Part shown: positions 12,477-17,122 of the stretch, piece after piece | How positions within the stretch are numbered: the first letter of the stretch is position 1 | How the letters are laid out: each line of letters starts with the position of its first letter | NCBI RefSeq assembly: GCF_947166265.1 | Contig: NZ_CAMVDO010000002.1 | Coordinates: 124,001-188,000 of the forward strand | DNA from: an uncultured Fibrobacter sp. | GTDB taxonomy: Bacteria > Fibrobacterota > Fibrobacteria > Fibrobacterales > Fibrobacteraceae | Direction: 5' to 3' | DNA: 64,000 nt | Notes under the pieces: model-generated | What the model was told of the DNA's origin: nothing | Database searches by the model: none | What the model saw: only the letters and a program-made list of their open reading frames with translations | Position numbers and translations under genes: made by a program

Positions 12477-13760
12477 CTAGTCCAAATCTACGATAATGCT
12501 CTGGTCGCGCTTTGCACCGATCGAGATCATGCCGATCTTCACGCCCACGAGTTCCGCCATGCGGTTCAGGTACTTGCGGGCATTTTCCGGCAGTTCTTCG
12601 AGCTTGCGGCACTTGGTGGTATCGCACTTCCAGCCCGGCATTTCTTCGTAGACCGGCACGCAGCGGCCAACCTTGGAAAGCTGGTTCGGGAAATTCTCGA
12701 TCTTTTCGCCGTCGCATTCGTAGTGAGTGCAAATCTTGATGGTATCAAAGGTGTCGAGCACGTCGAGCTTGGTGATAGCGAGGTGAGTCAGGCCGTTCAC
12801 CACGGCAGCCTTGCGGACCACCGGAGCGTCGAACCAACCGCAGCGGCGGTTACGACCAGTCGTTGCACCGTATTCGTTACCAATCTTGCGGAGCGTGTCA
12901 CCCGTTTCGTCCAGAAGTTCGGTCGGGAACGGACCGTTACCCACGCGGGTCGTGTAAGCCTTGACGACACCGACCACCTGGTCGATAGCCGTGGGGCCAA
13001 TGCCAGCGCCGCAGCTTGCATAGCCTGCGACCGTGTTGCTGGAGGTCACGAACGGGTAAGTACCCTGGTCGACGTCGAGGATGGTACCCTGAGCGCCTTC
13101 GAACACCAGGCGCTTGCCGGCCTTCACGGCGGCATAGAGCATGGCGCTCACATCGCGCACGAACGGCTTGATCTTCTGGCCGAGTTCGAGGTAGTCCTTG
13201 ATGACCTGTTCCGGATCGATTTCGGGAACATCGTACATCACCTTGAATTCTTCGTTGTGGACCTTGGCCATCGCTTCGACGCGGGGGCGAAGTTCGCGTT
13301 CGTCCATGAGGTCGCCCACGCGGACACCGATACGGTTCACCTTGTCGCTGTAGCAGGGGCCAATGCCGCGGCCCGTCGTGCCGATAGCGCCCTTGCCGGC
13401 CTTCTTTTCCTTGGCCTTGTCGAGGGTGGAGTGGTACGGGAGCACCACGTGTGCGTTGTCGGCAATGAACAGGCGACCTTCGGGGTTGATTCCCTTAGTG
13501 TGGAGGTCTGCGATTTCGGCAAGAGTCTGCACCGGGTCGAGCACCACACCGTTACCGATCACGCAAATCTTGTCATCATGCATAATACCCGAAGGAATCA
13601 GGTGGAAAACGAACTTCTTGTCGCCCACTTCCACGGTATGGCCGGCATTTGCGCCGCCCTGGAAACGCACGATGTAGTCTGCGTCCAGAGTCAGAAAATC
13701 AACAACCTTGGCCTTGCCTTCGTCACCCCATTGGGAACCGATTACAACACGATTTGCCAT
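12477..13760 (-). CDS. purA: Adenylosuccinate synthetase
   Basis: It joins IMP and aspartate using GTP in the first committed step of AMP synthesis, in the cytoplasm. The 427-residue length is normal. Family signatures are GSQWGDEGKAKVVDFL at the N-terminus, FQGGANAGHTV, KGAIGTTGRGIGPCYSDK, and the GTP-binding region near the C-terminus (SIGAKRDQ). The second residue region (VVIGSQWGDEGKAK) starts immediately after Met, supporting this start. The gene is followed by the Crp-family regulator. Its leader is long, about 110 bp to a promoter-like box at 13879. Confidence 0.97.
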   Translation of the reverse strand: MANRVVIGSQWGDEGKAKVVDFLTLDADYIVRFQGGANAGHTVEVGDKKFVFHLIPSGIMHDDKICVIGNGVVLDPVQTLAEIADLHTKGINPEGRLFIADNAHVVLPYHSTLDKAKEKKAGKGAIGTTGRGIGPCYSDKVNRIGVRVGDLMDERELRPRVEAMAKVHNEEFKVMYDVPEIDPEQVIKDYLELGQKIKPFVRDVSAMLYAAVKAGKRLVFEGAQGTILDVDQGTYPFVTSSNTVAGYASCGAGIGPTAIDQVVGVVKAYTTRVGNGPFPTELLDETGDTLRKIGNEYGATTGRNRRCGWFDAPVVRKAAVVNGLTHLAITKLDVLDTFDTIKICTHYECDGEKIENFPNQLSKVGRCVPVYEEMPGWKCDTTKCRKLEELPENARKYLNRMAELVGVKIGMISIGAKRDQSIIVDLD

Positions 13761-13955: not shown

Positions 13956-14272
13956 GGGGCATATAAATTCCGCAAAACGTAACCGCTTATATGCCCCTTT
14001 TCGCAAAACACAAATAAATTAATACCATTTTCATTCACATTTTCAACCAAGGGGCATATAAAAAACTCTAAACAGATCAAATTATACGCCCCCATACCAA
14101 TCCCCAAATCCATATTCTCCAACAAACGCTCAAATGGGGCATATAAATCTTCCCAAAGGCAACCTCTTATACGCCCCACCATCATTTTTTCACCTTTACA
14201 GCCATCGAAAAATCCCTGCAAAATGAAAAAGGGGCATATAAAACATCTCAATACCACATTCTTATATGTCCC
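13956..14272. repeat. Array of four 42-bp inverted-repeat units
   Basis: Four units start at 13956, 14051, 14136 and 14231. Each is exactly 42 bp: GGGGCATATAAA, a 19-bp unique centre, then TTATATGCCCC or a one-base variant (TTATACGCCCC in units 2 and 3, TTATATGTCCC in unit 4). The left arm is identical in all four. Unit-to-unit spacing is 95, 85 and 95 bp, close to whole helical turns. The 19-bp centres and the 43-53-bp gaps do not match each other. This is most of the 683-bp gap between purA and the next gene; the rest is AT-rich with no evident gene. Its function is unknown. Confidence 0.9.
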
Positions 14273-14391: not shown

Positions 14392-14430
14392 GCCACGAAG
14401 GAGTGCAACTCCTCGTGGCTTTTTATTTTT
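14392..14430 (+). terminator. Intrinsic terminator just upstream of the nuclease-like gene
   Basis: The stem GCCACG-A-AGGAGT and ACTCCTCGTGGC pairs over 12 bp with one bulged A and a 3-nt loop, followed by TTTTTATTTTT. It ends 13 bp before the next start codon, with a TATATT box at 14363 upstream. It may end an RNA from the repeat array or attenuate the downstream gene. Confidence 0.8.
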
Positions 14431-14443
14431 CAACAGAGGAATT

Positions 14444-15265
14444 ATGGAAAACAATCAAAAAATAGTGAACCGTTCGCCAATCATAACCGCCCTTCAAGAA
14501 CAAACGGACATCTATCAAAACACCCTGGACAACCTAACAAAGAAACTTCGCAACGCACCAAAGGAGACCCTAAGGGTTCAACCACACAAGAAATCGTTTC
14601 AATATTACATCGTCACGCAAAAGGGCGACACGAAGGGCTCGTACCTTCCCCGCAAAGAAATTCGCAAGGCAAAAGCCATTGCGCAGCGAGACTACAATGA
14701 AGCGGCGGCGGCCATCATCAAAAAGCAACTTGCGGCCATCGACACATTCCTCAGGGCATATCAGCCCAACGCACTCGACCAAGCCTTCACCGGGCTGCAT
14801 CCGGGCCGCCGCGCACTTGTGACGCCCGTGCGAGAACCAGACGACGAATTCATCGCCGCATGGCTGCATCATCCTTATACGGGTAAGCCCTTCGAAATCA
14901 ATGCCCCCGAATTCTACACCAGCACGGGCGTGCGCGTCCGCTCGAAATCTGAAGTCATTATCGCAGACGCGCTCAGTCGCGCTGGCATTCCCTTCCGCTA
15001 CGAATACCCCACAAGCGTCAAGGGCTGGGGTACGCTCTACCCCGATTTCACCTGCCTCGACACGCGCACCCGCGAAGAAATCATCTGGGAGCATTTCGGC
15101 CTTATGGGCGACCCGGACTACACCGAAAGCACCGTTCAAAAAATCGCCCACTATACCGCCAGCGGCTACACCCTCGGCAAAAACTTCATCGCCACCTTCG
15201 AAAACGCCGCAAGCCCGCTCTCCGTCAAGCAAGTGCAGGCATACATCAAGTCATTGCTGATGTAG
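14444..15265 (+). CDS. PD-(D/E)XK nuclease-like protein of unknown role
   Basis: A 273-residue soluble protein. The N-terminal half is helical and basic (TLDNLTKKLRNAPK, LPRKEIRKAKAIAQRDYNEA). The C-terminal half has the order of a PD-(D/E)XK fold: RSKSEVIIADALSRAG (Glu170), LYPDFTCLD (Asp201) and EIIWEHFGLMGDPDY (Glu216, with His where Lys is common). From memory, similar unnamed proteins are frequent in gut Firmicutes, which would suggest transfer, but no search was run. A ribosome site (AGAGGA) precedes the ATG. An intrinsic terminator and a four-unit repeat array lie directly upstream. A nuclease acting on nucleic acid is inferred from the motifs only. Confidence 0.75.
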   Translation: MENNQKIVNRSPIITALQEQTDIYQNTLDNLTKKLRNAPKETLRVQPHKKSFQYYIVTQKGDTKGSYLPRKEIRKAKAIAQRDYNEAAAAIIKKQLAAIDTFLRAYQPNALDQAFTGLHPGRRALVTPVREPDDEFIAAWLHHPYTGKPFEINAPEFYTSTGVRVRSKSEVIIADALSRAGIPFRYEYPTSVKGWGTLYPDFTCLDTRTREEIIWEHFGLMGDPDYTESTVQKIAHYTASGYTLGKNFIATFENAASPLSVKQVQAYIKSLLM

Positions 15266-15322: not shown

Positions 15323-17122
15323 TTATTCTGAATCCTTGAGACAGCGGATGCTGCCTAACTCATTTTTTTCCGTAGAGTTGAGACGTGCTTTTTCTCCATA
15401 TCGATCGTTGACCGAGGCCCCATCCATAGATAGCCGGTAGGCCAACGTGGAACCATTTTCTGTAGAACTCCAAAAAAAAGCTCGATACATGGTCGTTCCA
15501 TCATTATAGTGGTAATAGCCGGTAGGAATCACAGAAAATCCGTATGTGTCATCTCCATTGCCAATGTCACCCCATCCGCCTTGCGATTTAAGATATTTGC
15601 CACCACGACTTATGTATGAAGAATTGTCGAAACCGTAAGACATGTCTATAAACCGGAATAGCGCATTAAATTCATCTTGACTGGGAATATGCCACCCCTC
15701 AGGGCAGATACCTTGGGGCGCACCGTTCGTCGCAGCCGCCCAAGTGTAGCGTTGTCCATGCACGGCACAATCACCAGCAGTTAGCGAATCGATAACCCCG
15801 CCACCGCACAAGATTGCACCCTTGAGACTTGGGGATTCCGCACTGTCGGCATAGTTCAGATTCTGAGCCATCCATGTTTGTTCACCAAGCCTTATGGTCT
15901 TATAGACTTGATCATCACGTTCGTCAAGGAATTCGCCGTAGACTAAATCTTTGTTCAAGTAAGTTGCAGATGCAGCGTATTTGCATTTGTGGCCTTCAGG
16001 GCAGTTGGCGGCATAATAGCCATCTTCCTTCACTCCTGCGGGGAATCTCTCGTCGATAAAAATATCATCGGGATCATAATCCATGAGACACCTAAGAGCG
16101 TGTTCTCCTCCACGCGCATAAGAATTGTCCATTTTTGACTCTGTCAAATTGAATTCAATACTGCTCAATTCACGATTACCACCAGGGTTATAGATAAAAT
16201 AACTTGCAATTTTGTTGCCATAATACATGGCACCTTTGTCATTGGCGTACATGGTAGAATCGCCTACAGCATTTTTAAAGTCTAAAAAATCGCTCCAAGT
16301 CGGAATATGCCAACCCTTAGGACAAAGGCCTCGTCTAAACAGAGGATTTACTTCCTCAAACTGCCTTGCGGAATCAAGGGCCTGCGCCTCGGTATATGTA
16401 GATTGGTTACTGCCGTATTTGTAATCCAGATCGTGCGCCATCCACACTCTAGTATATTTCTTAAATTTTTCAGTTTTGTTGACGGTAAAGGTTTGGGACA
16501 AATTGATCGTCAGAGTCTTGTAGGTCCGATTGTCACGCAAGTCTGTGAGCGAGTTCGTTTCAGGATCGTACACACTATTGTCGTCTTTGGGTTGTTCGAT
16601 GCGATTGTAGCAGTAATTTTTCTTCTTGGATTCAAGATCCATGTAAATATACCAGTCCCACTTTTCAAGATCTACATCATAATCGCATAGGAAAACATCG
16701 TCCGTTGGGGTGTAGTAGGCACGGGTACAAGCGAGTTCCTGCGTACAGGCGATTTTGTCAGACATCTTACTCCAGCAGAAATCCCAACTGCAGGCTACGT
16801 CTTTATTTACAGAAGAGGATGACAAGCTCCCCTTTCCGCTAGATGATGACTTTGCCGATGTTGAACTCGGTTTTGTCTGATCCTCGGACTCAATCCATTT
16901 CTCACCATTACACTCGTAATTTAGCTCAACATCCGATACATATACTTTCTCGCCCTTGACATCCATATTGCAGGCATAGGTTCTCAGTTCGTCTTTGTCG
17001 GCAACACTTCGGTCCGTTGCGGCAGAACTAGAATCCCCGCAAGCCAATAGCGTAAGCGTGGTTAACGCAACGGCACACACCAAGCATTTCCTTATCGTCA
17101 TTTTCATAAAAAATTCAAACAT
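15323..17122 (-). CDS. Lipoprotein with two FISUMP domains
   Basis: A 599-residue lipoprotein with lipobox LLAC (Cys28 from the first ATG) and a Ser/Lys-rich linker around residues 85-105. It then has two copies of the Fibrobacter succinogenes major paralogous domain (TIGR02145). Copy 1 includes TRVWMAHDLDY and CPKGWHIPTWSDFLDF. Copy 2 includes YKTIRLGEQTWMAQNLNYA, ICPEGWHIPSQDEFNALF, FFWSSTENG and a final SIRCLKDS. The domain is abundant in Fibrobacter, is thought to be surface located, and has a fold related to FGE-like domains; its role is not established. ATGs at 17107 and 17101 are alternative starts. The first copy is more diverged. Confidence 0.93.
   Translation of the reverse strand: MFEFFMKMTIRKCLVCAVALTTLTLLACGDSSSAATDRSVADKDELRTYACNMDVKGEKVYVSDVELNYECNGEKWIESEDQTKPSSTSAKSSSSGKGSLSSSSVNKDVACSWDFCWSKMSDKIACTQELACTRAYYTPTDDVFLCDYDVDLEKWDWYIYMDLESKKKNYCYNRIEQPKDDNSVYDPETNSLTDLRDNRTYKTLTINLSQTFTVNKTEKFKKYTRVWMAHDLDYKYGSNQSTYTEAQALDSARQFEEVNPLFRRGLCPKGWHIPTWSDFLDFKNAVGDSTMYANDKGAMYYGNKIASYFIYNPGGNRELSSIEFNLTESKMDNSYARGGEHALRCLMDYDPDDIFIDERFPAGVKEDGYYAANCPEGHKCKYAASATYLNKDLVYGEFLDERDDQVYKTIRLGEQTWMAQNLNYADSAESPSLKGAILCGGGVIDSLTAGDCAVHGQRYTWAAATNGAPQGICPEGWHIPSQDEFNALFRFIDMSYGFDNSSYISRGGKYLKSQGGWGDIGNGDDTYGFSVIPTGYYHYNDGTTMYRAFFWSSTENGSTLAYRLSMDGASVNDRYGEKARLNSTEKNELGSIRCLKDSE

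Follow-up and report, generated by a model that had tools for sequence, protein, structure and literature searches.

Helically phased inverted-repeat arrays with dialects matched to a linked family of predicted PD-(D/E)XK nuclease-like proteins in Fibrobacter

Rumen Fibrobacter genomes carry phased arrays of inverted repeats whose arm "dialects" match those of a linked family of predicted nuclease-like proteins, a pairing for which we found no earlier description in the literature searched. Our best overall explanation, to which we assign a rough probability of 0.78 on sequence evidence, is that the arrays are putative cooperative double-stranded binding sites of the 273-aa protein encoded next to them. 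The system couples an unnamed nuclease-like family with an unnamed class of DNA arrays by a readable rule, in which hairpin residues 44 to 52 of the protein track the arms, and its dozens of natural protein/site pairs are ready material for working out a code of protein-DNA recognition.

The window, a 64,000-nucleotide stretch from an uncultured Fibrobacter sp. (genome G000), contains one such array in the gap between purA and the divergent gene of the 273-aa protein:

12477 to 13760, minus strand: purA, the array's fixed neighbor
13956 to 13997, no strand assigned: array unit 1, GGGGCATATAA-N20-TTATATGCCCC
14051 to 14092, no strand assigned: array unit 2, right arm TTATACGCCCC
14136 to 14177, no strand assigned: array unit 3, right arm TTATACGCCCC
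14231 to 14272, no strand assigned: array unit 4, right arm TTATATGTCCC
14392 to 14429, plus strand: hairpin and T-run just 5' of the nuclease-like gene's start codon, by its sequence a putative terminator or attenuator
14444 to 15265, plus strand: gene of the 273-aa PD-(D/E)XK-type protein

Each of the four 42-bp units has two 11-bp arms, GGGGC(A/G)TATAA and TTATA(T/C)GCCCC, around a 20-bp center, and the unit starts lie 95, 85, and 95 bp apart. The left arms are identical in all four units and the right arms carry single changes; the array coordinates, unit spacing, and arm variants reported in an earlier note on this DNA all proved correct on re-examination. Because the base adjoining the 11-bp arm is A in 87% of the half-sites examined, a description with 12-bp arms and a shorter center would be equally fair. 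The window holds 9 arm matches against 0.61 expected by chance, and reversed-pattern controls gave 0 matches in every genome.

The spacing of the units follows the helical repeat of DNA. Among 110 distinct units of the window dialect, 97 have a 20-bp center, and neighboring units are spaced 62 to 64, 74, 83 to 86, 95 to 96, 104 to 106, 127, 137, or 181 bp apart, with a period of ~10.55 bp and a vector strength of 0.92 (related genomes are not independent, so that Rayleigh and Fisher p-values overstate and effect sizes such as this one matter more). The same register holds in 66 nonidentical arrays upstream of homologous genes, mostly in dialects other than that of the window, where 98.8% of 167 spacings deviate from a whole multiple of 10.55 bp by no more than 1.5 bp (28% expected). 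Symmetrized centers have A/T at positions 1 to 2, 9 to 12, and 19 to 20 and more G/C between, a 10-bp-phased pattern that suggests a bend. The earlier note's proposal of dimers bound on one DNA face is thus strongly supported in its geometry. Between orthologous arrays, change amounts to 5% in the arms, 24% in the centers, and 16% in the gaps and flanks, a comparison that somewhat favors arm conservation since the arms were located via their match.

Inverted-repeat arms around unique loops, with the symmetry kept in every dialect, could also be read as hairpins with 20-nt loops, formed by RNA or by a single strand, such as a guide or small-RNA array. We consider this very improbable because of the whole-turn spacing, which recurs across dialects and has no reason in RNA, and because the two arms do not covary: at arm position 6, pairing is seen in 45 of 110 units against about 54 if the arms were independent, so pairing is not the conserved property, and the hairpin alternative raised in the earlier note is left unsupported. 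Hybrid units, whose left and right arms come from different dialects, also speak against it, and no Rfam family reached its gathering score. CRISPR loci combine direct repeats and unique spacers with a cas locus; the repeats here are inverted pairs with two gap classes, and the centers drift through point mutation between orthologues. Tandem duplication of two units is seen in arrays L137:3978-4273 and L139:4010-4336, where identical or nearly identical centers recur two units apart.

Homologues of the 273-aa gene are present in 48 of 80 Fibrobacter genomes, with up to 7 per genome, and an array of the same architecture lies 5' of 77 of 107 such genes, in a search made without a preset arm sequence and accepting scores of at least 44 (shuffled controls scored at most 28). 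More than 20 arm dialects are represented upstream of homologues, including GTACCTATAA, TTACATACTAA, TTACGGACTAA, TTACGTACTAA, TGTGGGTAA, GGGTACCAA, and TAGGACTAA, and the purA site carries one of four dialects (A, B, C, or D) in different Fibrobacter. This arm-independent search detected no array 5' of some homologues (e.g., L031, L188, and L219), and a homologue outside Fibrobacter, on a human-gut contig labeled bacteriophage (L163:3033-3833) and related over most of the protein at 29% identity, has no upstream array. A second homologue in the genome of the window (L092:7454-8709, on G000:C2, ~50 kb from the window array) has its own TTACATACTAA array, and we found no solo arrays of this dialect in that genome. 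Differing hairpins occupy the place of the leader in several homologues; a terminator-like leader was rejected as a universal part, as it is evident across a good part of the close subfamily but reaches the chosen score in only 40 of 107 cases.

No Pfam or NCBIfam family fits the 273-aa protein, which is predicted from conserved residues and fold to be nuclease-like and of the PD-(D/E)XK superfamily. Its nuclease domain (residues 160 to 273) has acidic and lysine active-site residues in an alpha-beta core, and among homologues E170 is kept in 77/77, D201 in 76/77, E216 in 77/77, and K233 in 73/77, with H217 also nearly invariant and dN/dS mostly well below 1. The best fold neighbors of the C-terminal domain include TnsA (1t0f, Z 8.9) and Bax1 (Z 8.0), but identity to them is low and no Tn7 or XPB partner adjoins the Fibrobacter gene. 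A further match, to PADLOC PDC-S68, covers residues 159 to 271 (E 7e-24) and is confined to the C-terminal part of the profile, positions 1102 to 1218 of 1221; unlike that full-length helicase-nuclease, the Fibrobacter protein lacks the helicase part and has its own N-terminal domain and arrays. We note that the PDC-S68-type nuclease domain is also found on plasmid and viral contigs, in some cases within AAA/helicase proteins.

Dialect is associated with the N-terminal part of the protein. In the close subfamily, residues 12 to 51 predict dialect with 100% nearest-neighbor accuracy, against 0.3 to 0.6 beyond residue 74. When C-terminal distance is corrected for, arm sequence in 59 nonredundant protein/array pairs shows its highest partial correlation with residues 44 to 52 (r 0.43) and one of about zero with the nuclease domain; the value is 0.18 to 0.22 for residues 10 to 40, which are closer to the array and whose greater divergence can also depress their arm correlation. 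Residues 42 to 57 form a beta-hairpin between two long helices in a structure model of moderate confidence (mean pLDDT 70), and residues 45 to 52 are hypervariable between conserved L43-R44 and Q53-Y54-Y55. In these comparisons, dialect is tracked by the hypervariable beta-hairpin (residues 44 to 52) and not by the nuclease domain.

The purA locus also holds the traces of dialect exchange. The dialect-A genome G007 and the dialect-B genome G006 share 97.1% identity on the purA side and 97.7% identity from about codon 53 on; the stretches in between, 678 and 730 bp long, are unrelated and comprise the array, the leader, and the first ~53 codons. Relatives have exchanged the array and the first ~53 codons as a single 0.7-kb cassette, and a worn dialect-A unit beside the dialect-C array in G010 and G063 is the trace of a dialect switch. 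The association of dialect with the N terminus is partly linkage because the array adjoins the 5' end of the gene, and it is conceivable that linkage is the whole of it, with a different protein reading the arms and N-terminal variation hitchhiking in the swapped cassette. We find this quite improbable because the correlation peaks at residues 44 to 52 and not at the extreme, array-proximal N terminus; units elsewhere in the genome, moreover, match the dialect of the gene.

The genome of the window has 20 window-dialect units (at most 3 mismatches) on 9 contigs, that of the window and eight others, and most of them lie in arrays of 2 to 4 between unrelated genes. Searching Fibrobacter genomes for the unit pattern, as the earlier note had suggested, located window-dialect units in 18 of 80 (at most 2 mismatches; none with reversed-pattern controls). 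The array is also one of a gene-linked family whose other members have different arm sequences. Unit counts per genome derive from such pattern searches, and the genomes are mostly draft or incomplete, which makes counts of absence soft. That note had also held that scattered copies with no gene link would mark an ordinary repeat: the scattering is real and the absence of a gene link is not, as one dialect-matched array adjoins the nuclease gene.

Units and genes co-occur by dialect. At least two dialect-B units are present in 7/7 genomes with a B gene and in 2/73 others, dialect-C units (any number) in 12/12 genomes with a C gene and in 6/68 others, and dialect-A units in 7/7 genomes with an A gene and in 11/73 others; these counts include gene-linked units, and unlinked matching units are listed directly in carriers including G039, G002, G055, G023, G006, G010, and G019. 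Mixed A/B arrays and hybrid units with one arm per dialect occur in G006, G007/G048, and G015, two-dialect arrays with hybrid units include L127:4044-4371, L142:3957-4283, L126:3681-4008, and L272, and at one intergenic gap G000 has an A unit where G039 has a B array. None of 57 solo arrays, a few of which are orthologous to one another or gene-linked, falls within a called gene. Window-dialect solo arrays persist without detectable decay in genomes lacking the matching gene, many of these genomes being incomplete and the loci having been picked by good matches; array decay after gene loss was set aside, as no difference was found in this biased sample. Viral contigs gave 0 matches, and an origin of the arrays from phages or other viruses was likewise rejected.

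We hypothesize that a dimer of the 273-aa protein would span each 42-bp unit and use the beta-hairpin of residues 42 to 57, the proposed arm reader, to read both arms, which lie three helical turns from each other, over the A/T-rich bend in the center. The whole-turn register of the units would allow several dimers to assemble on one DNA face. The array beside the protein's own gene, together with the terminator-like leader, probably controls its expression, and the same protein may also address the dialect-matched solo arrays between genes. The allelic cassette made up of the array, the leader, and the gene's initial ~53 codons travels as one, so that a lineage could switch dialect in one step, after which unlinked arrays would follow or be lost. 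If the predicted nuclease is active and cuts DNA, how would a chromosome bearing tens of cognate sites survive, and what maintains several allelic dialects within one genus?

As to the overall role of the system, we tentatively favor, at somewhat less than even odds, a relation like that of RAYTs and REPINs, in which the array would mark a dispersed repeat whose spread or maintenance is aided by the nuclease, with nuclease and repeat kept together vertically. In RAYT/REPIN (TnpA-REP) systems, the nuclease gene is single copy per type, matching inverted repeats are found both adjacent to it and dispersed between genes, and a genome can hold several types (PMC3116915). Here too, each dialect has a single linked gene with cognate inverted repeats dispersed in intergenic DNA, and the position by purA is vertical. 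The cognate protein, however, is PD-(D/E)XK-like and not an HuH (Y1) transposase (no HuH match in Pfam or NCBIfam); phasing is whole-turn and double-stranded without arm covariation, where REPINs form single-strand hairpins; and the Fibrobacter arrays comprise 2 to 6 units with unrelated centers and move with the N terminus as allelic cassettes. Nor did we find clear center copies between loci within one genome, tandem duplications being confined to arrays; because centers are not common to different loci, recent whole-array copying is unsupported, and insertion boundaries at L260/L088 and the aroE locus were not definable by comparison. It is rather unlikely, and less so than the regulon considered below, that allelic nuclease dialects serve self/non-self discrimination or defense, in which cognate arrays throughout the genome would spare, hold, or steer a nuclease that acts against foreign DNA. 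The allelic dialects at one locus, the cassette swapping, the intact active site, and the domain shared with PDC-S68, a candidate anti-phage protein, would fit such a role, but what is shared is the C-terminal part only. Slightly less likely again is a bacterial self-recognition system in which nuclease and genome-wide phased marks switch dialect jointly by cassette exchange, with the result that lineages of different dialects would handle foreign DNA, or one another's, in different ways.

An ordinary regulon, in which the arrays would be operators through which a transcription factor, perhaps the 273-aa protein, controls adjacent genes, strikes us as unlikely. The array 5' of the nuclease gene, the helical phasing, and the conservation of arms among orthologues agree with it, and at that gene the operator reading of the earlier note has partial support, but it does not carry over to the dispersed copies, which have neither promoter preference nor a functional theme. 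Of the gaps that hold the 57 solo arrays, 31 are co-directional, 14 are divergent, and 12 are convergent; the corresponding numbers among 72 other long intergenic gaps are 36, 33, and 3, and an excess in convergent gaps (12/57 versus 3/72) is not the concentration at promoters of a transcription factor regulon. The genes flanking solo arrays, trpA, aroE, ribosomal protein S9, and cellulases among them, have no common functional theme, and among 30 genomes examined the aroE array is present only in G000, with one half-site retained in G016. Cooperative phased operators and iterons likewise consist of repeated sites on one DNA face adjoining the gene of their binding protein, as the Fibrobacter array adjoins that of its putative binder; the Fibrobacter arrays differ in their dialect cassettes and dispersed off-promoter copies. 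A role in chromosome organization is the least probable of the four.

The dialects also recall the DNA uptake sequences of Neisseriaceae, which PMC3630211 presents as short, dispersed, lineage-specific genomic words, and for which PMC3868556 describes a cognate receptor (ComP). The Fibrobacter arrays are likewise short dispersed words in lineage-specific dialects. DNA uptake sequences are far more numerous than tens of sites, whereas Fibrobacter has tens of sites, in paired 42-bp units and phased arrays with a linked nuclease-like gene.

Regulation of purA by the array was considered and rejected: the array lies outside the upstream purA stretch common to relatives, and relatives with near-identical purA lack arrays. 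On its other side, the nuclease gene is adjoined by a Fib_succ_major lipoprotein-type gene (window positions 15323 to 17122; Pfam 1.7e-33), and genes of this type are also found near several solo arrays.
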